From assembly GCA_030018135.1 (NCBI GenBank), contig JASEGJ010000003.1, positions 1 to 64,000 on the forward strand: a stretch of DNA of 64,000 bases, written 5' to 3'. Below are positions 29,502 to 43,433 of this stretch, in pieces. The notes under the pieces are model-generated. The model saw only the letters and a list, made by a program, of their open reading frames with translations, did not search any database and was not told the origin of the DNA. Both the position numbers and the translations under genes were made by a program. Each line of letters opens with the position of its first letter. Position 1 is the stretch's first letter. This DNA comes from Candidatus Hodarchaeaceae archaeon. GTDB lineage: Archaea > Hadarchaeota > Hadarchaeia > Hadarchaeales > Hadarchaeaceae.

Positions 29502-29735
29502 TTGAGAAAATTACTCGTTGAGCTAAGAGCGGGCGAGAGTGGCATCATTGCGGGCGTCACAGGCGGGTTTGGGTTGCAACGGCGTTTGGCAACTTTAGGG
29601 ATAAAAATCAACAAAAAAGTCCGAATGATCACTGCTCAACCGTTCAGGGGCCCTGTTGTCGTGGAAGTCGATGGGGCCCGTGTAGCAATCGGCATGGGAA
29701 TAGCTTGGAAGGTCCTTGTGGAGGTAACAAAGTGA
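29502..29735 (+). CDS. feoA: Ferrous iron transport protein A
   Basis: 77 residues, an SH3-like small cytoplasmic protein. It contains the usual LRAGESGIIAGVTGGFGLQRRLATLGI and ends with a basic patch. It helps FeoB function. TTG start with an AAGGAG ribosome-binding site 8 bases upstream. Its stop overlaps the feoB start by 4 bases. Confidence 0.93.
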   Translation: MRKLLVELRAGESGIIAGVTGGFGLQRRLATLGIKINKKVRMITAQPFRGPVVVEVDGARVAIGMGIAWKVLVEVTK

Positions 29736-31438
29736 GAATACTCCTCATGGGAAATCCAAACGTCGGTAAAAGTGTCGTTTTTTCAAGGCTGACAGGTACC
29801 AGCGTGGTCGTGTCCAATTACCCCGGTACCACAGTTGAGTTCACGAAAGGCACGATGAAGATTGGGGAAAAGAAAGCAGACGTAATCGACGTTCCGGGGA
29901 CCTATACCTTGGAGCCAACCACAAGGGCAGAAGAAGTCGCAGTTGAGATGCTTAAAGAAGGCGATGTGGTCATCGATATCGTCGACGCCACAAACTTGGA
30001 GAGAAACCTTTACTTAACGCTTCAGCTATTGGAAAAGAAAGTGCCTGTGATCGTGGCCCTCAACTTGTCGGACGAGGCCAAGCACAAAGGTATAACTATC
30101 GATGTCAAGAAACTCGAGAAATTATTAGACGTCCCAGTCGTTCCCACCGTTGCCATCACTGGAGAGGGGCTCAAAAAACTCGTTTCTCGCCTGCCTGAAG
30201 CCAAAGCACATGCTTACAGACACACCGACGAACAAAGATGGGAAAAAGTGGGCAAGATCGTTGAAGATGTCCAATCAGTAGCGCATCGACATCATACTTT
30301 GGCAGAAAGGCTAGGGGATGCAACCGTTAGGCCCTTAACTGGGATCCCAATTGCCATTGGAATAGTTACACTAATGTTCCTTGTGATACGATTCATCGGC
30401 GAGGGATTGATTGCCAATGTGTTTGATCCAGCGTTTGGGGCCTATGAACCCGTAGCGATGAGGATGAGCGAAGCATTAGGTTCTGGCGGCCTCCTCCATA
30501 ATATCGTAATCGGAAACCTGATCGATGGCGGGATAGACTTTACGCAGTCCATGGGCCTATTGACTACCGGGATTTTTGTCCCGTTCGCAATGGTTCTACC
30601 TTACGTGTTTGCGTTTTACTTGGTGCTGGGATTTCTCGAGGATAGCGGCTACTTACCAAGGCTAGGTGTACTTGTCGATAGTGGAATGCACAGGGTAGGG
30701 ATGCACGGCCTTGCGGTAGTGCCGATGTTGCTTGGCTTAGGGTGCAATGTCCCGGGAGCTCTTTCTTCCAGAATTCTCGAAACTCAAAGGCAAAGGTTCA
30801 TTGCCCTCACGCTCATGGGGATAGCAGTCCCATGCATGGCCCAGCTCGCCATAATCTTCGGGTTGGTAGGTCCCTATGGCATCGGAGCTCTGGCGATGGT
30901 CTTTGCAACACTTTTTGTGGTATGGGTGGTGATTGGGCTCTTGCTCAACAAGGTTTTGGCGGGCGAAAGTCCGGAGATGTTCACAGAAATTCCGCCTTAC
31001 CGCATGCCGTATTGGGGGGCAACATTGAAAAAGCTGTGGATGAGGATAAGGCACTTTTTGACCACGGCGATCCCCTTCGTGCTGCTGGGCGTACTTCTTG
31101 TGAATGTATTGTATACTTTGGGGATAATCGACTTCATGGGTGATATCGCATCCCCAGTTGTTGTTGGGTTGCTTGGGTTACCGCCGGCTGCGGCCGGAGC
31201 ATTGATAATAGGATTTCTGCGCAAAGATGTGGCTGTAGGGATGTTGCTGCCCCTCGGCCTGAGCATGCAACAGCTGGTAGTGGCCAGCGTGGTACTGGCG
31301 ATGTACTTCCCCTGTGTCGCAACCTTCGCCATCCTCTTCAAAGAGTTCGGGATAAAAGGCACGATAAAATCTACTTCAATTATGATCGGAATGGCGTTGC
31401 TAGTGGGGACTTTACTTAGACTTGTACTCGGTGTGTGA
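29732..31438 (+). CDS. feoB: Ferrous iron transporter B (GTPase-permease)
   Basis: 568 residues. G-protein motifs: G1 [15 protein letters not shown]2 [11 protein letters not shown]3 DVPGT, G4 NLSD. The membrane part has two gate repeats (around [16 protein letters not shown] and [13 protein letters not shown]; then [17 protein letters not shown]). GTG 29732 is preferred over an upstream TTG because GGAGGT lies seven bases before it. Family proteins are usually somewhat longer, but all landmark motifs are present. It imports Fe2+. Confidence 0.95.
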
Positions 31439-31439
31439 G

Positions 31440-31868
31440 ATGCCATCGGTAAGTATCGACGAATATCTGGAAGTCCTGTGGACTCTACGGGTCGATAGAA
31501 ATCAGCCCGGAAAGATAAGGGATGTCGCAAAGTTATTAAAAATCGCGCCGCCAAGTGTGTTCCAAATGTTCGAAAAAATGAGAATGCAGGGGCTGATTAA
31601 ATATGACAAGCGCTCTGGGGCAGATTTCACACGAAAGGGAAAGAGGAGGGCCAGACATATTGTGAGAAGTCACAAGCTTGTGGAAAAACTCCTCGTTGAC
31701 ATCGTGGGCGTTAAACTCGGTGAGGTGGAACGTCCCGCTTGCGGCGCCGAGCATTATCTGCCAGAAGAAGTGGCTGATGCGATATGTATTTATTTGAAAC
31801 ATCCGCGCGAGTGTCCACACGGAGATCCGATTCCGAAGGGAAAATGTTGTCCTCAGAGGAAAGTTTGA
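31440..31868 (+). CDS. DtxR-family metal-dependent repressor
   Basis: 142 residues. A winged helix (SIDEYLEVLWTL, KIAPPSVFQMFEKMRMQG) is followed by the metal-binding dimerisation region with CGAEHYLPEEVADAI and HPRECPHGDPIP, which hold the usual Cys, Glu and His ligands. There is no SH3 domain. The ATG lies just after feoB's stop. It is expected to bind Fe2+ or Mn2+ and to repress feo from the palindrome upstream of feoA. Confidence 0.92.
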   Translation: MPSVSIDEYLEVLWTLRVDRNQPGKIRDVAKLLKIAPPSVFQMFEKMRMQGLIKYDKRSGADFTRKGKRRARHIVRSHKLVEKLLVDIVGVKLGEVERPACGAEHYLPEEVADAICIYLKHPRECPHGDPIPKGKCCPQRKV

Positions 31869-31904: not shown

Positions 31905-32285
31905 TTGGCACGAGTAATTCTCTTCTATGGGGTTAGCTTGTACCAATGGCGTCGCGGTCGGCGAGGGGGACCTGGAAGGCCGATGAAACCCAGGTTCTTG
32001 AGCTTCAGGCCCGAAGCGATAACGTTTATGCCATCCGCTCCAATAGGGCCACCAATCGCGGGCGAGCCGATCTACATGACTTATGACGAGTACGAGGCCT
32101 TTCGCCTGATTTATCACGAAGGGCTGAACCAGGAGGAGGCCGCCAAGCGGATGAAAATTTCGCGTGGGACGGTGTGGCGCTGCTTAGAGAGCGCGAGGAA
32201 TAAGGTTGCCTGCATGCTCGTCGAACGCCGCCCGCTCGTGGTCACGTCTGCACCTCCTCGACCTCCAGAGGAGACAGGCACTTGA
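31905..32285 (+). CDS. DUF134 (UPF0251) helix-turn-helix protein
   Basis: About 126 residues with the DUF134 signature: GRPMKPRFLSFRPEAITFMP, then TYDEYEAFRLIYHEGLNQ, EEAAKRMKISRGTVWRCLESARNKVA. This is a sigma-70 region 4-like HTH. The start is uncertain: no ATG precedes the domain except an internal one, and the N-terminus as listed begins with non-ATG codons; a TTG near 31938 is an alternative. Such genes commonly stand next to NifX/MinD clusters, as here. Its stop overlaps the next start. Confidence 0.75.
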   Translation: MARVILFYGVSLYQWRRGRRGGPGRPMKPRFLSFRPEAITFMPSAPIGPPIAGEPIYMTYDEYEAFRLIYHEGLNQEEAAKRMKISRGTVWRCLESARNKVACMLVERRPLVVTSAPPRPPEETGT

Positions 32286-33121
32286 GCCAAGTCGATAGAA
32301 TACGGCTCACGGTTTTGGTTGACGATTCCAAGAACCCGATCAGACCCGAACTCACAGCCAAGCACGGGTTGTCCTTCTTCATCGAATTGAAAGCTGGCAG
32401 ACACACAACTAGTCTGTTGCTGGATACCGGGCCGTCCGCCGATGTTGTCCTACAAAACGCTCGGAAGCTCGACATCGATTTGAGGAAGGTGGATTCTATT
32501 TTCCTGAGCCACGGACATTACGACCATACCGGTGGGCTCTTGGGCGTCCTAAAACACATCGGCAAAAAGGTACCTGTGATAGCCCACCCAGAGGCGCTTG
32601 AGCCAAAATTTGCGAGGAGGAAGAAGCGTCTCAAAAAGGCCGGCATCCCTTTTCAAGTTTCAGAGTTGCAGAGATCGAGCGGCATCTTAACTCTAAAACG
32701 GGGGTCGACTTCCGTAGCGCCCGGAGTTTGGGTGAGCGGGGAAATCAAAAGAGTCAGCCCATTTGAAGAGGTAAAGGGGTTCAAGGTTATGAGGCGGGGC
32801 AAACTCGTAGAGGATTACATGCCGGATGATCAGGCTCTTTTCGTGAGGGTCAAGGGCAGGGGGCTGGTGGTCATCACGGGTTGCGCTCACGCGGGGTTGA
32901 TAAACACGATCAAGCAGGCGCAAAAGGTAACGGGTTCGAGCGGCGTGTATGCGGTCGTTGGTGGGTTTCACCTAGCTGGAGCAAGTGCGGGAAGGATAAA
33001 TGCAACCATTGAGGAGCTCCAGAAAGCTGGCGTGAAAGCTGTCATGCCATGTCACTGCACGGGAAAGAAGGCAATCACAAAGTTCTCGAAGGTCTTTGGA
33101 AAAAAAGTGCAACCAGCTTAG
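32282..33121 (+). CDS. Metallo-beta-lactamase-fold hydrolase
   Basis: 279 residues. The metal site HGHYDHTGG (~residues 75-83) is complete, with a second His in GCAHAGL and the late VGGFHLAGAS. The overall pattern matches the subgroup annotated as 7,8-dihydropterin-6-methyl-4-(beta-D-ribofuranosyl)-aminobenzene-5'-phosphate synthase-like. That name implies methanopterin synthesis, but the subgroup's true substrates are often unknown. The TTG start overlaps the DUF134 stop (TTGA). Confidence 0.8.
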   Translation: MSQVDRIRLTVLVDDSKNPIRPELTAKHGLSFFIELKAGRHTTSLLLDTGPSADVVLQNARKLDIDLRKVDSIFLSHGHYDHTGGLLGVLKHIGKKVPVIAHPEALEPKFARRKKRLKKAGIPFQVSELQRSSGILTLKRGSTSVAPGVWVSGEIKRVSPFEEVKGFKVMRRGKLVEDYMPDDQALFVRVKGRGLVVITGCAHAGLINTIKQAQKVTGSSGVYAVVGGFHLAGASAGRINATIEELQKAGVKAVMPCHCTGKKAITKFSKVFGKKVQPA

Positions 33122-33152: not shown

Positions 33153-33197
33153 AAGCTTTTATAGAATTATGTGCAATAGCACAAATAGTACAAATAG
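33153..33197. promoter_or_regulatory. Promoter with inverted and direct repeats before the Trp-rich gene
   Basis: The A/T-rich cttttataga (~33156-33165) is a good TATA box. Just downstream, TGTGC-aata-GCACA (33170-33183) is an inverted repeat, and acaaatag occurs twice with one base between (33181-33197). These repeats cover the expected start of transcription, so a regulator could bind here. The DUF134 HTH protein encoded just upstream is a candidate. Confidence 0.45.
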
Positions 33198-33209
33198 AGG
33201 TGGTAACGA

Positions 33210-33473
33210 ATGTGGTGGCCGGGTTTCGGCTGGGGTCGAGGCTGGTTTGGACCTTGGCCAGGCAGAGGGCCTTTTAGCTATCTGCCCCCATGGCAGAGAC
33301 CCGGGTGGTGGTTTGGTCGAGGAGCGTGCTGGTGGCTCTTCGGACCTTGGGCGTGGTCGATGTTCGGATACCCATGGAGTGGATACCTAGGAACCTACGG
33401 GTTTGCTCCGTACGCGATGCCACAGTACCCCTACCAAAGATACGTACCATACCCTTATCCGGGATACTGGTAA
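33210..33473 (+). CDS. Extremely Trp/Tyr/Gly/Pro-rich small protein
   Basis: 87 residues, 14 Trp and 11 Tyr. It starts MWWPGFGWGRGWFGPWPGRG and ends with a PYPYPGYW tail. There is one Cys (GACWW) and almost no charge except a few Arg. No hydrophobic span of normal transmembrane type or signal peptide is clear. GAGGTGG ribosome-binding site before the ATG. The downstream neighbour also starts MWWP. Both lie directly before NifX/MinD genes, where DUF5320-type Gly/Arg/Met-rich proteins are usual. This looks like a highly diverged aromatic version of that partner. Function unknown. Confidence 0.75.
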   Translation: MWWPGFGWGRGWFGPWPGRGPFSYLPPWQRPGWWFGRGACWWLFGPWAWSMFGYPWSGYLGTYGFAPYAMPQYPYQRYVPYPYPGYW

Positions 33474-33496
33474 ACAAACAAAAGGAGGTCAAAAGT

Positions 33497-33814
33497 ATGT
33501 GGTGGCCTAGAGGTTGGAGATGTTGGTGGTGGTATATGAATCCATACATGTACCCACCCTACCTACCATACGTGCAAGCGCCGCAGCAACCCTCGCAACC
33601 TGCGCCGCAACCCACGCAGCCCGCAACAGTACCTTACTACCCGCTCCCACCGTTCATGCCTCCTCCACCGACGCCCGAGCAAGAGATCGAAGCGCTGGAG
33701 GCATACAAAAGCGAGCTCGAAGAGGAACTCAAGGGCATCGAGGCGAGGATAAAAGAGTTGAGGGAGTCCCTAGGCAAAGGATCCAGCGGTCAACCATCTG
33801 AAACCGGAAAGTGA
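33497..33814 (+). CDS. DUF5320-like protein: aromatic/proline-rich head, coiled-coil tail
   Basis: 105 residues. The N-terminus is aromatic (MWWPRGWRCWWWYMNPYMYP), the centre is Pro/Gln-rich (QPAPQPTQPATVP), and the tail (residues ~58-95) is a charged coiled coil, EALEAYKSELEEELKGIEAR. The tail matches the end of DUF5320 proteins found in NifX/MinD clusters. GGAGGT ribosome-binding site seven bases before ATG. The coiled coil suggests oligomerisation. Confidence 0.7.
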   Translation: MWWPRGWRCWWWYMNPYMYPPYLPYVQAPQQPSQPAPQPTQPATVPYYPLPPFMPPPPTPEQEIEALEAYKSELEEELKGIEARIKELRESLGKGSSGQPSETGK

Positions 33815-33818
33815 TAAA

Positions 33819-34184
33819 TTGGGGCTTAAAGTGGCAGTTGCCACGAAGGGGCTCAAAAGCCTAGAGGATGAAGTATCAGATGTCTTCGGCAGAGCTCGAG
33901 CCTTTGCAATAGTCGAGACCGAGGGAGGTCAGATCAAGAACGCAAAAGCTGTGGAGAATCCCGCAGCTTCATACGAGTACGGAGCTGGACCGATAGTCAC
34001 AAAAATGCTCGCCGACATGGGAGTCGAGGTCGTGATCGCTGGCGAGTTCGGTATGGGGGTGTCAGTTCTCCTCAAGGATAAGAATATCCGTGCAGTCAAA
34101 GTTAGAGCTGGAACAAATGTCTGCCGGGCCGTGGATAGTGAATTAAGTGAGAAACAAACTTCGGAGCGATTGTCATGCGGGTAG
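33819..34184 (+). CDS. NifX/NifB-type cofactor-binding protein (single domain)
   Basis: 121 residues of the dinitrogenase iron-molybdenum cofactor family: LKVAVATKGLKSLEDEVSDVFGRARAFAIVE, AGPIVTKMLADMGVEVVIAGEFG. Such stand-alone proteins, including the orange protein of sulfate reducers, bind Mo-Cu-S or Fe-Mo-S clusters; they are not evidence of nitrogen fixation. TTG start 4 bases after the previous gene. One Cys (NVCRAV) and a second near the C-terminus. Confidence 0.85.
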   Translation: MGLKVAVATKGLKSLEDEVSDVFGRARAFAIVETEGGQIKNAKAVENPAASYEYGAGPIVTKMLADMGVEVVIAGEFGMGVSVLLKDKNIRAVKVRAGTNVCRAVDSELSEKQTSERLSCG

Positions 34185-35053
34185 CCATCCCATCAAATAA
34201 GCCTGGCGGACTGGATGCTGCGGTCTCCCCCCATTTTGGTCGTTGTGATGTATTCACGATAGTTAAAATTGAAAATGGCAAGGTAGTGGATGTAAGCGTT
34301 GTTGAAAATCGAGGGACACATTTCGGCTTTGGAGCAACACCTGCGGAAATCTTGGTTTCGAACGGCGTAGATGCGGTATTAGCTCAGGGTATGGGACCTA
34401 AGGCCCTGCAGCTCTTGGCACAAAGCGGTATCACAACGTACATGGCCTCGGCTCAAACGGTTGGAGAGGCTGTGCGCGAGCTGGTCGAGGATAAGGTCAG
34501 GCTGGCTACAATCGAGGAAGCGTGCAAAGAAGCAAGAGAACCTTGGTTGCCTCCGGCCCCTATCATGCCCGGTGTGGGGATGGGGATGGGCCGTGGAATG
34601 GGAAGGGGGGGGAGAATGATGGGTCCCTCTCCTTATGGTCCCGCTTACCCACCGATGATCCCCCCAACGCCGTATCCTCCACAAATGCCGAAACCTTCTC
34701 CCCCACCAACAGGCCGCTTTAAAGTGGGCGTCGCAAGCCAGGGGCCAGGGGGACTCGACGACATGGTATCGCCGATCTTTGGCAGGTGCCCGAGCTTTAC
34801 CATCGTCGAGATCGAAGGGAGAGAAATTAAAAATGTAAAGGTGATACCGAATCAATTCGTTTCTACGCCTCGCGGTGTGGGAATCGCTGTGGTCCAGATG
34901 CTAGCAAGCGAAGGGGTGAAATTTATTTTGGCCGGACGATTTGGCCCTTGGGCATCCTCAACTTCTAGTCAATTCGATATCCAAATGGTCATGGTCCCGC
35001 CCGGCGTGAGGATTAGGGACGCTATCAACCAATACATCATCGGCTCACGCTAG
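34175..35053 (+). CDS. Two NifX-type domains fused by a Gly/Met/Pro linker
   Basis: 292 residues. Domain 1 (~1-110) begins MRVAIPSNKPGGLDAAVSPHF and continues GRCDVFTIVK. The linker (~125-180) is low-complexity, GVGMGMGRGMGRGGRMMG followed by Pro-rich sequence. Domain 2 (~183-290) begins FKVGVASQGPGGLDDMVSPI, then FGRCPSFTIVE. Both domains keep the FGRC Cys. A tandem double-NifX with such a linker is uncommon. It overlaps the preceding gene by 10 bases. Confidence 0.83.
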   Translation: MRVAIPSNKPGGLDAAVSPHFGRCDVFTIVKIENGKVVDVSVVENRGTHFGFGATPAEILVSNGVDAVLAQGMGPKALQLLAQSGITTYMASAQTVGEAVRELVEDKVRLATIEEACKEAREPWLPPAPIMPGVGMGMGRGMGRGGRMMGPSPYGPAYPPMIPPTPYPPQMPKPSPPPTGRFKVGVASQGPGGLDDMVSPIFGRCPSFTIVEIEGREIKNVKVIPNQFVSTPRGVGIAVVQMLASEGVKFILAGRFGPWASSTSSQFDIQMVMVPPGVRIRDAINQYIIGSR

Positions 35054-35054
35054 G

Positions 35055-35960
35055 GTGCAGCGATTGAAGGAAATTGTGATCGCTAGTGGAAAGGGTGGAG
35101 TCGGTAAGACTACGGTCGCTGCATCGCTTGCAGTTTTTTTGGCCAAAGCCGGGACGAAAATCGTTGCAGCTGATGCAGATGTTGATGCACCGGATCTCTT
35201 GTTGGCGCTGGGTGGCGGAAAGACAATTTCCTCAACCGAGATCGAAGCTTCAGAAAAAGCGGTGGTCGACGGGTCGAAATGCACTGGATGTGGTAATTGC
35301 GTCAGCGCTTGCCCGTTCGGCGCGATTGTGGTGCAGAATCGTCGACCAACCGTTGTGCGGCTCATGTGTGAGGGTTGCGGCGTGTGCGAGGTTGTCTGCC
35401 CCGTCAACGCAGTTGAGGTGAAAAAGGCGGTGACGGGCACCCTGAAAATCGAGGATACTAAGTACGGATTCCCGTTGGTGACTGGGTACCTGAGGCTGGG
35501 CGAACACAATTCGGGGCACCTCGTAGCGAGCGTAAAAAAATCCGGGCGGAAGACGGCTGAGGATTTGGGGGCAAGGGCGCTCGTGGTCGACGCAGCGCCG
35601 GGTATAGGTTGCCCAGTGATCGCTTCGATCTCGGGAGCCAGCTATGTTATTGCTGTTACCGAGCCGACGCCTGCCGCCAAGCGGGACCTAGAACGCTTGG
35701 TCAAAATCATAAAACACTTCGGGGTCTCGGCGGGAGTGGTGATAAACAAGGCGAACCTCTCGGACGACTTCAGGGATGCGCTTGAGGACTGGGTAAAGCA
35801 TGTGCTAGGTTATCAAATTTTAGGCGAGATCCCCATCGACTACGAAGTTGTTAAAGCTCTGGTGAACATGGTGCCGGTCACTGAGTTTAATCCAAACGCT
35901 GAAGCATCGAAGATCTTGACTGCGATAGCCAAACGCGTGCGAGATGAGGTTTTACTATGA
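35055..35960 (+). CDS. MinD/ParA-type ATPase with inserted ferredoxin domain (1)
   Basis: 301 residues. A deviant Walker A motif, SGKGGVGKTTVAASLA, starts the protein. Two 4Fe-4S binding motifs are inserted around residues 75-125: CTGCGNCVSACPFGA and CEGCGVCEVVCPVNA. Switch region DAAPGIGCPV follows. The architecture matches the MinD-like partners of the orange protein complex in Desulfovibrio. Two of these occur in tandem. GTG start. Confidence 0.9.
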   Translation: MQRLKEIVIASGKGGVGKTTVAASLAVFLAKAGTKIVAADADVDAPDLLLALGGGKTISSTEIEASEKAVVDGSKCTGCGNCVSACPFGAIVVQNRRPTVVRLMCEGCGVCEVVCPVNAVEVKKAVTGTLKIEDTKYGFPLVTGYLRLGEHNSGHLVASVKKSGRKTAEDLGARALVVDAAPGIGCPVIASISGASYVIAVTEPTPAAKRDLERLVKIIKHFGVSAGVVINKANLSDDFRDALEDWVKHVLGYQILGEIPIDYEVVKALVNMVPVTEFNPNAEASKILTAIAKRVRDEVLL

Positions 35961-36910
35961 AACCCGGCGGGGAGGTGTCAGCGAAAGTGCTCAGGAAAAA
36001 GAGCGTGAGCGTGCCCATGATAGCAGTCACCGGCGGAAAGGGCGGCACGGGCAAAACCACGGTTGCGGTGAATTTGGCCGTGGGGTTGAGTTTGAAAGGC
36101 TCTAAGGTCATGCTGGTCGATGCCGACGTTGACTGCCCCTGTTGCGCGATGTTGCTCGGAACCGAACTGAATGCTAGCGAGGAAGTCAGAGTATTTAAGC
36201 CAGTGATCGATGCGGCGAAGTGCACTGGATGTGGAAGGTGTGTGGAAGTCTGTCGGGAACATGCATTGGTAGGGCTTGAGGGGCAAGTCCCATCACTTTT
36301 CGAAGAACTTTGCTCCGGGTGTAAAGCGTGTCAGCTCGTTTGCGAAGCCGGCGCCATGAAGAGCGGTCAGAAAGTTCTCGGTACCATCTACGTCGCAGAT
36401 TCAAATGGGATTAAACTGGTGGTGGGCGAACTCAAACCGACCGAGCCGAGGTCGCCGATCGTGGCGCGCGCGACCATGCTCAAAGCCGCTGAGGAGCTTA
36501 AGCTTGACAAACACGATATCGTAATCGTGGACACCGCTCCGGGGATTCATAACGTGGTGGCTCAAGCCCTTTGGGAAGCCGACCTAGCGCTGGCTGTGAC
36601 TGAGCCGACCCCACTCGGAGCTCACGATCTGGGATTCATGTTAGACCTCACCGAGGAACTGGGGTTGCCGACCGAGGTCATCCTGAACAAGGCCGACATC
36701 CCAAGCGGTTTGAAGGATAAGGTGGTGAAGACGAGCCGTGATCGGGGAGTTAAAATCGTTGCGGAGATACCGATGGACGAAGAGCTGTTGCGCTCCTACG
36801 TTTCGGGTGAGCCGCTCGTGAGAAAATCACCCAAGAGCCCAGCTGCAGCTGCAATGTTAACTCTGGTTCCGCACATTCGTGAAATGTTTGTAAAGGGAGG
36901 TGAAACCTGA
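35957..36910 (+). CDS. MinD/ParA-type ATPase with inserted ferredoxin domain (2)
   Basis: 317 residues, a paralogue of the preceding gene and overlapping it by 4 bases. Walker A is GGKGGTGKTTVAVNLA. The ferredoxin insert has CTGCGRCVEVCREHAL and CSGCKACQLVCEAGA. DTAPGIHNVV is the switch. The two ATPases probably form a heterodimer, as in known ORP loci. Slightly longer N-terminus (~20 residues) than paralogue 1. Confidence 0.9.
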   Translation: MKPGGEVSAKVLRKKSVSVPMIAVTGGKGGTGKTTVAVNLAVGLSLKGSKVMLVDADVDCPCCAMLLGTELNASEEVRVFKPVIDAAKCTGCGRCVEVCREHALVGLEGQVPSLFEELCSGCKACQLVCEAGAMKSGQKVLGTIYVADSNGIKLVVGELKPTEPRSPIVARATMLKAAEELKLDKHDIVIVDTAPGIHNVVAQALWEADLALAVTEPTPLGAHDLGFMLDLTEELGLPTEVILNKADIPSGLKDKVVKTSRDRGVKIVAEIPMDEELLRSYVSGEPLVRKSPKSPAAAAMLTLVPHIREMFVKGGET

Positions 36911-37119
36911 TGGCGCAACCACCCACCCCACCACCGCTGCCAACTAAAAAGTTTCAATGTTTTGCCTGCGGGAACATCATAGAGGTGCCTCAGGGGATAC
37001 CCAAGCCACCAGCGTGCTCTAGGTGCGGCGCTCCGGCGGTAATGATTCATCGTGTTGACAAGGGGCCGCCGGGTGGAAGACGCGGCGCTGCGGGCCCACC
37101 TTGGGCTCAGCAAGGCTGA
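36910..37119 (+). CDS. Small zinc-ribbon protein in the NifX/MinD operon
   Basis: 69 residues with two metal-binding pairs, CFACG (~residues 17-21) and CSRCG (~37-41), and Pro/Gly-rich ends (PPTPPPLPTKK; GGRRGAAGPP). Its ATG overlaps the stop of MinD paralogue 2. It may be a rubredoxin-like or zinc-binding accessory protein. Confidence 0.7.
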   Translation: MAQPPTPPPLPTKKFQCFACGNIIEVPQGIPKPPACSRCGAPAVMIHRVDKGPPGGRRGAAGPPWAQQG

Positions 37120-37204: not shown

Positions 37205-38053
37205 GTGAGGATCTATTTAGATTGCATCCCGTGCTTCGTGAGGCAGGCTTTGGAAGCGAGCAAGATGGCTACGAGGAACAAAAACAAACAAGAAAAAGTC
37301 TTGAAGAAAGTTTTATCTGAGATTGGGAAAACTTCGTTAAAAAACAAGATACCATCTGATATTGCTCATAAAGTTCACCGCATAATCAGAAAAATGACAG
37401 GGAATAACGATCCTTACAAGAAATTGAAAGACCAGTGCAACAGAAAAGCGCTGAGGATGTACCCGGACCTTAAACAAAAGGTCGCTGGGTCTAAAGATAG
37501 ATTGCTGACGGCGACAAAACTCGCCATAGCTGGAAACATTATCGATTTTGGGCCCGGTTCTGAGTTCAATCTGGAGAAAACAATAGAGGAAGTTCTAGTT
37601 CAGGATTTCGCTATAAATCATTTTAATCGGCTTAGGGAAGCGTTGCAAAAATCTGAAAAGATTGTATATTTAGGAGACAATGCAGGTGAGATAGTTTTCG
37701 ATCGGATTCTCTTGGAAGAATTGAAGGATAAAGAGATCACATTTGTGGTCAAAGGAGGGCCCATCATAAATGATGCAACGGTCGAAGATGCAAAATTCGC
37801 TGGCATAGACAAAATTGCTGAGATTAAAACAATAAGCAATGGGGAGCCTGGCACGGGGCCGAAGAGAAATTCAAAGGAATTTACAAATTTCTTAAAAAGC
37901 GCCGATGTCGTGATTAGCAAAGGGCAGGGAAACTATGAAGCCTTAAGCGAAGTGAACGCGAACATATTCTTCTTGCTCAAGGTGAAGTGCCCAACGATTG
38001 CTGGGGATATCGGAGTTAAAATTGGTGGTATCGTCGTAAAACAATCGTGTTAG
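37205..38053 (+). CDS. DUF89 family metal-dependent phosphatase-like protein
   Basis: 282 residues. MRIYLDCIPCFVRQALEAS at the N-terminus holds the CxxC that starts many archaeal family members. The metal-binding core is YLGDNAGEIVFDRILLEEL (~residues 155-170), followed by VVKGGPIINDAT and SKGQGNYEALSE. DUF89 proteins are metal-dependent phosphatases thought to remove damaged or excess sugar phosphates. GTG start, 85 bases after the zinc-ribbon gene. Base composition is more A/T-rich than its neighbours. Confidence 0.85.
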   Translation: MRIYLDCIPCFVRQALEASKMATRNKNKQEKVLKKVLSEIGKTSLKNKIPSDIAHKVHRIIRKMTGNNDPYKKLKDQCNRKALRMYPDLKQKVAGSKDRLLTATKLAIAGNIIDFGPGSEFNLEKTIEEVLVQDFAINHFNRLREALQKSEKIVYLGDNAGEIVFDRILLEELKDKEITFVVKGGPIINDATVEDAKFAGIDKIAEIKTISNGEPGTGPKRNSKEFTNFLKSADVVISKGQGNYEALSEVNANIFFLLKVKCPTIAGDIGVKIGGIVVKQSC

Positions 38054-38360: not shown

Positions 38361-39218
38361 ATGGTGGGGCAAGTAGAAGAAAGGATGAAAGAAATACAGG
38401 AACAGGAAAGGCGCCTCAAAATACGGATGGCCAAAATCAAGTATAAACTGGCGATACTGAGTGGAAAGGGCGGGGTCGGCAAGAGTACCATCACCGCTAA
38501 TTTAGCCATTGCTTTTGCACGCAAGGGTCACAAGGTGGGTGTTTTGGATGTTGATATTCACGGCCCGAGTATTCCCAAAATACTCGGCATGAGGGGGCAG
38601 GAGTTGACTGCAGGGCGGCTTGAAGGTGTGGGCATCTTTCCGGCCAAAGGTCCGCTCGACATCAAAGTCATCTCCATGGATTTCCTCCTCCCAGATGACG
38701 AAACCCCGGTTATTTGGCGCGGTCCGATGAAGATGGGTGCGATCAGGCAATTTTTGGCGGATGTGGCGTGGGGTGACTTGGATTTTCTGTTTATTGATGT
38801 CCCGCCAGGAACTGGGGACGAGCCGCTCAGCTTGATGCAATTGTTGCCAGACATCACGGGTGTCATCGTAGTAACTGCACCATCCGAGGTTTCTCAGATC
38901 GTCGTCAAGAGAGCAGTAGGATTTACAAGGGAGCTGCACGTGCCGGTGGTTGGCATCGTAGAGAACATGAGTGGGTTCGTTTGTCCAAAATGTGGTGCAG
39001 AATTCGACATTTTAGGAACTAGTGGTGGGCAAAAAATATCAGAGCAACTTGGCATCCCATTTTTGGGCAAGATTCCAATCGATCAAAAGATATGTGAGGA
39101 TTCAGACAGGGGAACGCCTTTCGTCATCGAGCGTGCTGAAACTCCGGCGGCTAAGGCCTTCATGCGAGTGGTTGATAAAGTGGAGGGGTATTTAAAACAA
39201 CTGGGAGTGCGGGCTTGA
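38361..39218 (+). CDS. Mrp/NBP35-type iron-sulfur carrier ATPase
   Basis: 285 residues. Walker A SGKGGVGKSTITANLA (~residues 35-50), then VDIHGPSIPKILG, IDVPPGTGDEPLS, and the C-terminal VENMSGFVCPKCGAEFDI with the CxxC that binds a bridging 4Fe-4S cluster. The N-terminus is a short charged helix with no ferredoxin motif. It delivers Fe-S clusters. Mrp homologues often sit near ORP loci. Its stop overlaps the next gene by 4 bases. Confidence 0.93.
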   Translation: MVGQVEERMKEIQEQERRLKIRMAKIKYKLAILSGKGGVGKSTITANLAIAFARKGHKVGVLDVDIHGPSIPKILGMRGQELTAGRLEGVGIFPAKGPLDIKVISMDFLLPDDETPVIWRGPMKMGAIRQFLADVAWGDLDFLFIDVPPGTGDEPLSLMQLLPDITGVIVVTAPSEVSQIVVKRAVGFTRELHVPVVGIVENMSGFVCPKCGAEFDILGTSGGQKISEQLGIPFLGKIPIDQKICEDSDRGTPFVIERAETPAAKAFMRVVDKVEGYLKQLGVRA

Positions 39219-39973
39219 TCGTCGACGAGTTATTGGGTCTGGTCGGGGAGCGGAGAAGCCAGCTAGAAGACCTGACGCTCTCGAGGGTATGCGTGAGCCT
39301 CTGCTATACCGCGGTGATGCTCGATAACGGCTACGTTGGGCTCTGCCACACGCCTACCGAGGACATTGCACACACTCATTGGGGCCGCAGGCGGGACTTC
39401 CACGGCTTCAAGGCCTTGGAAATCACGCGCCTGGCGAATTCGCTTGACATGATTGAGAGGACCGTTGGCATAGCGGCATTGAACGCCCTCTCACAGTACC
39501 TGATGGACTCTGAAGGTTATGAGCGGCAGTTTGGAATGGACGCCTTTAATGCGATAGATGTAAAGGAGGAAGACAGCGCCGCGGTGGTTGGGTACATGAG
39601 GCCCCTAGTCGGGAAGCTGAGGGCAAAGGCCCGCGAAGTCCACGTTTTCGAACGCAACCCCCAATTGAGGGGGGATGCCCTGCCTGATACTTTTGTCGAC
39701 TCGATATTGCCGAAAGCGGATATCGTGGTTATAAGCGGGTCGAGTTTAGTCAATGGAACCCTTGATAGGTTGCTGGAGCTATCCAAAAGAACTAGATTCG
39801 TGATTTTTGCAGGGCCAACGGCCAGCACTTTACCAGAGCCTCTTTTCAAGCGGGGTGTAAGCGTCGTGGCGGGCGTTCGCGCGAAAGGTCCTAAGGTGAT
39901 GGGTGCAGTAGCCGAGGCCAAACCATTCGTGGCATTCAAACAGCTTGTGGAGAAGTATATTTTAAGGAGATGA
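39215..39973 (+). CDS. DUF4213/DUF364 putative metal-chelation protein
   Basis: 252 residues. The N-terminal DUF4213 domain has VCVSLCYTAVMLDNGYVGLC, and the C-terminal DUF364 domain has KADIVVISGSSLVNGTLDRLLEL and FAGPTASTLPEPLFKRG. A second DUF364 protein lies at 25.6 kb. It is coupled to Mrp, so it may handle a metal or cluster that Mrp carries. Function unproven. Confidence 0.8.
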   Translation: MIVDELLGLVGERRSQLEDLTLSRVCVSLCYTAVMLDNGYVGLCHTPTEDIAHTHWGRRRDFHGFKALEITRLANSLDMIERTVGIAALNALSQYLMDSEGYERQFGMDAFNAIDVKEEDSAAVVGYMRPLVGKLRAKAREVHVFERNPQLRGDALPDTFVDSILPKADIVVISGSSLVNGTLDRLLELSKRTRFVIFAGPTASTLPEPLFKRGVSVVAGVRAKGPKVMGAVAEAKPFVAFKQLVEKYILRR

Positions 39974-43147: not shown

Positions 43148-43433
43148 AGGCCTCTCGGATGGAGTGGCATGTGCTTTTGCTCGGGCCAAAACCTTCACGA
43201 TCCTCGATGTAGGGGGCAGAAAGGTTCAGGTGAAAGTCATCGCCAACCGGCAATTTCTGCGAGCGCGGCCGCGGACGGGCGGTAGTTCAAATGCTTTCGG
43301 AGGAGGGCGTGGATGTTGCGATCGCGGGCGAGTTCGGCCCGGGGGCGGCGGCATTTCTCCAAAAGAATAGAATCGACACGGTCGTGGAAAAAGCCGGCAC
43401 TAAGGTTGTCGACTTGCTGAGGGGCAAATATTG
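43148..43433 (+). pseudogene. NifX-type gene remnant, frameshifted
   Basis: Frame 1 reads KGLSDGVACAFARAKTFTIL then DVGGRKVQVKVIAN, equivalent to the opening third of a NifX domain but lacking the first strand. After a shift near 43275, frame 2 reads VVQMLSEEGVDVAIAGEFGP then FLQKNRIDTVVEKAGTKVVD, ending in a normal stop. It is a dead fourth copy of the NifX-type domains found at 33.8-35 kb. Confidence 0.7.

Follow-up and report, generated by a model that had tools for sequence, protein, structure and literature searches.

A 64,000-nt stretch of DNA (the window) from a Candidatus Hodarchaeaceae archaeon contains an operon that probably encodes a split version of the IssA system, for storing and delivering iron sulfide, whose ancestry is common with that of the orange protein (ORP) cluster of sulfate-reducing bacteria. 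ORP holds a Mo-Cu sulfide, and IssA holds thioferrate and is able to rebuild ferredoxin. Seven co-directional genes, mostly overlapping or a few bases apart, span 33210-37119 and encode a W-rich protein of 87 residues, a DUF5320-like protein, NifX proteins with one and two NifX domains (NifX1 and NifX2), two MinD-type ATPases with inserted ferredoxin domains (MinD1 and MinD2) and a zinc ribbon. A preliminary description of positions 33153-37119 had named all of these parts, and profile searches and coordinates confirm their presence, common direction and tight packing. The unit reaches beyond 37119, and the genes for DUF134 and a metallo-β-lactamase (MBL)-fold hydrolase directly upstream belong to it. 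FeoA, FeoB and a DtxR-family repressor are encoded just before this part; ARMT1 and Mrp genes lie downstream of the operon (Table 1). The window lies within contig C33 of a 1.11-Mb genome that is 93% complete, and the comparison genomes were placed as relatives at order level and as Thermococcales.

FeoB imports Fe(II) and Mrp carries Fe-S units. We read the operon as IssA-type because FeoAB and an iron-dependent DtxR are directly upstream, because its operator is shared with issA genes and with the MinD pair, Mrp and cation diffusion facilitator (CDF) genes of Thermococcales, because iron boxes are found before feoA in the window and before issA, issX and the MinD pair in Thermococcales, and because CDF-NifX fusions adjoin the MinD pair in four archaea. 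The preliminary description had proposed that the proteins handle a Mo/W/Cu-S cluster; the FeoAB and DtxR neighbors, the shared operator and the iron boxes favor iron and sulfide instead. IssA, which that description did not mention, is a closer functional model than ORP. IssA stores iron sulfide, and sulfide induces it only when iron is sufficient (PMC5524996).

The regulatory evidence comes from a palindrome just after the TATA-like box of the operon. TGTGCAATAGCACA is the sole exact TGTGCN4GCACA in the genome, and ten W-rich/NifX operons of two families are preceded by exactly this 14-mer, which is conserved between genera. Among 43 exact sites in 61 archaeal genomes, those with an A/T-only spacer are near a PF02579 (NifX domain) gene in 12 of 15 cases and those whose spacer includes G or C in 0 of 28 (p 3e-8); a thirteenth A/T-spacer site precedes a second W-rich gene. 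In Thermococcales the element takes the form TGTGCATATGCACA. All 19 Thermococcales genomes listed have it 55-83 bp before a PF02579 gene (22 of 32 exact sites), and IssA-like genes are among the genes so preceded. Other exact Thermococcales sites precede the MinD pair (two loci), Mrp (one), CDF exporters (four) and FmdE (one). The element and its placement are thus shared with issA: TGTGC, an AT-rich spacer and GCACA follow the TATA box in both. The same layout of B recognition element (BRE)/TATA box and operator occurs in relatives and before issA in genome G032, which is placed in Thermococcaceae and whose HypD is close to the Thermococcus kodakarensis protein over its full length. Judged by these sites, an IssA regulon may exist in Thermococcales. 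A regulatory link between iron-sulfide (IssA) and ORP-type systems has no match in the papers searched, and the literature search turned up no useful paper on the palindrome or on DUF134.

Iron boxes extend this likeness. The exact box before feoA, TTAGGCATGCCTAA, has counterparts 5' of feo/dtxR in three related loci, and in Thermococcales the same TTAGGN4CCTAA motif precedes the MinD pair, issA and issX. In genome G054, the gap between issX and the divergent sufC-sufB genes (locus L122, 11475-11650) contains a one-mismatch palindrome and an iron box. Two further palindromes were dropped as support, one in G055 because it falls within the coding sequence that precedes sufB, the other on contig C19 of G025 because a longer perfect palindrome contains it as its core. 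Both one-mismatch palindromes of the window (25147 and 61422) are inside genes.

Candidate repressors acting at the palindrome are DUF134 and DtxR in the window and DUF2250 in Thermococcales. The structure model of DUF134 is good only for its helix-turn-helix part (predicted local distance difference test, pLDDT, 75). DUF2250 has a conserved His-rich KKAFEVHKHHTYYRLS motif and adjoins NifX/MinD genes in Thermococcales (L167 6729-7259, L190 2655-3182, L193 4386-4892); neither DUF2250 nor CDF genes were found in the window or the following 16 kb. DUF134 and PF02579 co-occur among the 61 genomes (Fisher p 6e-7), and several deltaproteobacterial ORP loci have DUF134-NifX fusions, as would suit a metal or sulfide sensing circuit in which NifX proteins report Fe-S status to DUF134 and the remaining genes are effectors. 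Such a circuit leaves the tandem ATPases and W-rich proteins unexplained, and DUF134 of the window is a separate protein; we regard it as improbable. In many sulfate reducers, including L054, L058, L066-L068, L071-L073 and L078, the fusion is ORP itself, as if a DNA-binding domain had been joined to a metal-sulfide domain.

The second link to IssA is the composition of the small proteins. IssA of Pyrococcus furiosus consists of a NifX domain, a proline-rich part and a cationic Gly/aromatic tail that holds its single Cys, a tail suggested to envelop anionic thioferrate (PMC5524996). The pattern recurs in the IssA-like proteins of G032 and G054 (WGRGWGRGWGRG..., one Cys, no acidic residue). The W-rich 87-mer is 37% aromatic, 18% Gly and 17% Pro and contains 5 Arg, one Cys and zero acidic residues; these traits agree in nearly all homologues, and the protein resembles IssA tails in its high Gly and aromatic content, one Cys and lack of acidic residues. 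Its open reading frame is a real gene, since relatives exist in at least nine other loci and differences from its counterpart in locus L037 number 7, 1 and 12 at the three codon positions across 87 codons. We read the W-rich protein as a putative IssA-type tail supplied in trans, an assignment made from sequence composition. The DUF5320-like protein, with relatives in L035-L043, has a W-rich head, a Pro/Gln linker and a coiled coil; a W-rich head and coiled coil are joined in one protein in G002 and G006. L043 encodes a fusion of NifX with a GMGRG stretch and a coiled coil, in support of the view that these parts are modules of a single machine. The linker between the domains of NifX2 contains GMGMGRGMGRGG and is proline-rich, with a short GMGRGMGRGG inside NifX2, and a homologue of the zinc ribbon with a GRG-rich tail (63%) adjoins NifX in two loci (L052/L053). 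The W-rich and DUF5320-like genes of L039 (6540-7255) open with the identical stretch RKRWNSMWWWPGFGWGRGRGW, which indicates duplication or recombination between them.

The split form differs from IssA in arrangement. P. furiosus IssA (SipA) and the window share the NifX domain and a Gly/Trp/Arg-rich cationic one-Cys tail sequence, and the Thermococcales system shares the palindrome just after the TATA box, the iron-box context, and a MinD pair and Mrp with the same element. In the window, however, the tail is found in separate small proteins (W-rich and DUF5320-like) instead of the C-terminus of a NifX protein, a double NifX protein is present, and the genes form one operon with the MinD pair.

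The relation to ORP was assessed with 33 sulfate-reducer loci retrieved with ORP of Desulfovibrio gigas. Complete loci contain ORP, a tandem MinD pair, a further NifX and DUF134, and several include Mrp, MBL or DUF5320-like genes. The tandem MinD pair, second NifX and DUF134 are common to these loci and the window, in keeping with the earlier proposal of an archaeal cluster related to that of ORP; by gene content and phylogeny, the window cluster is such a relative without ORP. A tree of NifX domains, which are short and leave it partly unresolved, included D. gigas ORP and 10 deltaproteobacterial loci. The three window domains all lie apart from ORP, and approximately unbiased (AU) tests, on groupings picked after the tree was seen, reject ORP and a window domain as one clade (p 0.005, 0.0016 and 0.005) and with it ORP orthology. 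The first domain of NifX2 (NifX2-N) has as its sister (support 97/95) the NifX located after the MinD pair of ORP clusters, which by gene position would be Orp5 of D. vulgaris. The Mo-Cu inference is unsupported because none of the three domains is ORP.

An archaeal ORP system, with a Mo/W/Cu-sulfide cluster on the NifX proteins and the MinD pair as partner ATPases, would account for the parts common to ORP loci (homologous MinD pair, NifX2-N and the NifX in Orp5 position, DUF134, Mrp, MBL, DUF5320) and draws on the molybdenum cofactor genes of the genome and on the ORP structure 2wfb, the second-best solved match of the second NifX2 domain (NifX2-C). Besides the tree, the iron-related neighbors and regulatory sites speak against it, and no Mo or Cu transport gene is seen in the cluster; we judge it unlikely. 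The nearest solved match to the window NifX domains, better than ORP, is MTH1175, a protein placed in the IssA clade (PMC5524996). Compared with the Desulfovibrio ORP complex (Orp3, Orp4, Orp5, Orp8, MrpORP), the window has the same tandem A/B MinD-ferredoxin ATPases with an adjacent NifX, DUF134 and Mrp, and in part the MBL and DUF5320-like genes, but lacks an Orp8 orthologue. The D. vulgaris cluster is sigma-54 controlled (PMC6345978), whereas the window has an archaeal TATA-type promoter and operator.

The MinD pair is conserved in its active sites. The P-loop and eight ferredoxin cysteines of each MinD are invariant across 30 homologues, and the MinD tree separates A and B types, of which every organism has one each. 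MinD2 (A) and MinD1 (B) are one-to-one counterparts of the two MinDs in ORP clusters, in swapped order (B-A versus A-B). The window sequences lie outside the ORP-type clade (100/99), which holds all deltaproteobacterial sequences and two archaeal loci, but tests that unite window and ORP-type MinDs in a single clade do not reject such a sister position (p 0.12 and 0.11). In vitro, Orp3/Orp4 receive clusters from MrpORP (PMC6345978). Mrp of the window covers positions 1-249 of the 365-position NCBIfam MrpORP model (349 bits, cut-off 450), that is, the ATPase part only, and carries no NifX domain, unlike the Mrp-NifX fusion MrpORP.

The AlphaFold model of MinD1 (pLDDT 96) has a MinD/NifH/ApbC-like fold, compatible with ATP-gated electron or cluster transfer though no proof of it. 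The NifH-like and ApbC-like features of the model could also suit a maturase for one metalloenzyme, in which the MinD pair, like NifH/CfbC, loads a NifX-built cofactor into a single client; NifX relatives of nitrogen fixers carry NifB-co (PMC5524996). In the loci examined, though, no gene for a client enzyme is consistently linked. The system is patchily distributed in the family and has a minimal form that lacks the MinD pair, which suggests that its role is accessory rather than essential and makes a dedicated maturase doubtful. The NifX (IPR003731) domain is common to the nitrogenase cofactor proteins NifB/NifX/NafY, but the NCBIfam nifB and nifX models match NifX1 very weakly, far under cut-off, and PF00148, the nitrogenase core, was not found in the 93% complete genome, as the preliminary description had held. 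A spatial or cell-division role by MinD-like positioning would rely on the MinD fold and on proposals for ORP proteins in cell division, with MrpORP at a pole (PMC6345978). The ferredoxin inserts with invariant cysteines and the iron/Mrp/CDF regulon render it very improbable.

Gene content and its conservation, phylogeny with the two ATPase types, the operator, the iron boxes and the tail composition are observed directly. Taking the operon as an iron-sulfide system, we infer from them a mechanism that extends to the bound metal, the direction of transfer, complex formation and the identity of the repressor. FeoAB would import Fe(II), and the NifX domains would hold anionic iron sulfide as a thioferrate-like polymer or as clusters. 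The W-rich and DUF5320-like proteins, cationic, Gly/Trp/Arg-rich and with one Cys, would wrap the iron sulfide and keep it soluble in trans, the role suggested in cis for the C-terminal IssA tail. The paired MinDs may spend ATP and draw on their two [4Fe-4S] ferredoxin sites so as to reduce Fe-S units or shuttle them between NifX scaffolds and carriers; one such carrier, Mrp, would distribute them. A repressor on TGTGCN4GCACA just after the TATA box could switch the operon with iron/sulfide status.

Several observations weigh against the iron-sulfide reading. The window iron box precedes feoA, not the operon itself. IssA does not group with the window NifX domains in the tree, and an AU test rejects issX, NifX2-C and NifX1 as a single clade. 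The substrate of the CDF exporters may be Zn, Co, Ni or Mn instead of Fe. Molybdopterin is made in this organism, judged by the PF00994 genes of the genome, so that Mo or W would be available. The metal that the operon proteins would bind is assigned from gene context.

The locus and the operator comparison bear on how anaerobic archaea store and mobilise iron along with sulfide. They name candidates for the partners, energy source and regulator of IssA, among them the MinD-ferredoxin pair, Mrp, a cation exporter and tail proteins encoded separately, and they tie the ORP cluster to the handling of iron sulfide. We tentatively consider an ancient system of anaerobes for storing and trafficking iron sulfide, with IssA and ORP as two outgrowths, in which MinD pairs might load and unload NifX scaffolds, detachable W/G/R-rich tails package the material, and one operator (TGTGCN4GCACA) controls the genes in at least two archaeal lineages. 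T. kodakarensis and P. furiosus are genetically manipulable, and with several of the partners present in Thermococcales the idea is directly testable there.

The cluster recurs in related archaea, as the comparison of gene order called for by the preliminary description shows. A MinD1 search found close homologues in 8 further genomes of the same order and none in some family members. Across the loci compared, the order DUF134-MBL-(W-rich)-DUF5320-NifX1-NifX2-MinD1-MinD2-zinc ribbon-ARMT1-Mrp is kept with small changes, usually with FeoB nearby besides DUF134 and the metallo-hydrolase. ARMT1 has the same position in five related loci, and the MBL hydrolase is in the same place in relatives and also in some deltaproteobacterial ORP clusters. 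A smaller, MinD-less version, DtxR-FeoB-DUF134-MBL-W-rich-NifX, is present in G002 and G006, and the FeoB-DUF134-MBL-W-rich-NifX linkage is kept without the MinD pair in two loci (L128, L129); G003 retains only FeoAB-DtxR-DUF134. PF02579 is present in 19 of 19 MinD-pair genomes among the 61. More distant archaea combine the MinD pair with NifX, DUF134 and Mrp, and in four cases with a CDF-NifX fusion.

Table 1. Features of the operon and its surroundings in the window.
Feature	Position	Strand	Basis
DtxR-type iron box TTAGGCATGCCTAA	29470..29483	.	exact TTAGGN4CCTAA, 18 bp before feoA start
FeoA	29502..29735	+	PF04023, 67 bits
FeoB ferrous iron transporter	29705..31438	+	PF02421, 185 bits; also PF07664
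DtxR-family iron-dependent repressor	31422..31868	+	PF02742, 89 bits; PF01325, 45 bits
DUF134 (UPF0251) helix-turn-helix protein	31905..32285	+	PF02001, 65.7 bits
MBL-fold metallo-hydrolase	32282..33121	+	PF00753, 51 bits
TATA-like box TTTTATAG	33157..33164	+	sequence; layout shared with relatives and G032 issA
Operator palindrome TGTGCAATAGCACA	33170..33183	.	just after TATA box
W-rich 87-aa protein	33210..33473	+	homologues and composition
DUF5320-like protein	33497..33814	+	PF17253, 24.4 bits, under cut-off 27; coiled-coil part only
NifX1	33819..34184	+	PF02579, 57 bits
NifX2 (two NifX domains)	34175..35053	+	PF02579, 77 and 59 bits
MinD1 (B type), P-loop ATPase with inserted 2x[4Fe-4S] ferredoxin	35055..35960	+	
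MinD2 (A type), P-loop ATPase with inserted 2x[4Fe-4S] ferredoxin	35957..36910	+	
Zinc ribbon with G/R/P-rich tail	36910..37119	+	Zn_ribbon_8, 22 bits, under cut-off
ARMT1-like (DUF89) phosphatase	37205..38053	+	PF01937, 246 bits
Mrp/NBP35 Fe-S carrier ATPase	38361..39218	+	PF10609, 322 bits
Degenerate fourth NifX fragment	43255..43419	+	PF02579 positions 36-89, 32.5 bits

The CDF transporters with C-terminal NifX beside MinD pairs lie at L044 7156-8409, L047 8089-9390, L048 3128-4375 and L051 7897-9099. These ~415-residue proteins had been considered NifB-like radical-SAM fusions, which was ruled out. In contrast to them, separate CDF genes bear the palindrome in Thermococcales. One bin, G021, contains two whole-cluster copies (L037 on C18 and L038 on C4), one without the W-rich gene, and may combine two strains. 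In the window, Mrp is followed by a DUF364/DUF4213 gene (putative heavy-metal chelation, 39215-39973), a pairing kept in several relatives. The fourth NifX fragment has no intact start and is probably a pseudogene or remnant. The sole SufBD-core gene found in the genome (C33 64606-65298) lies ~27 kb downstream on the same contig, just past the window, and adjoins a SufC-like gene.

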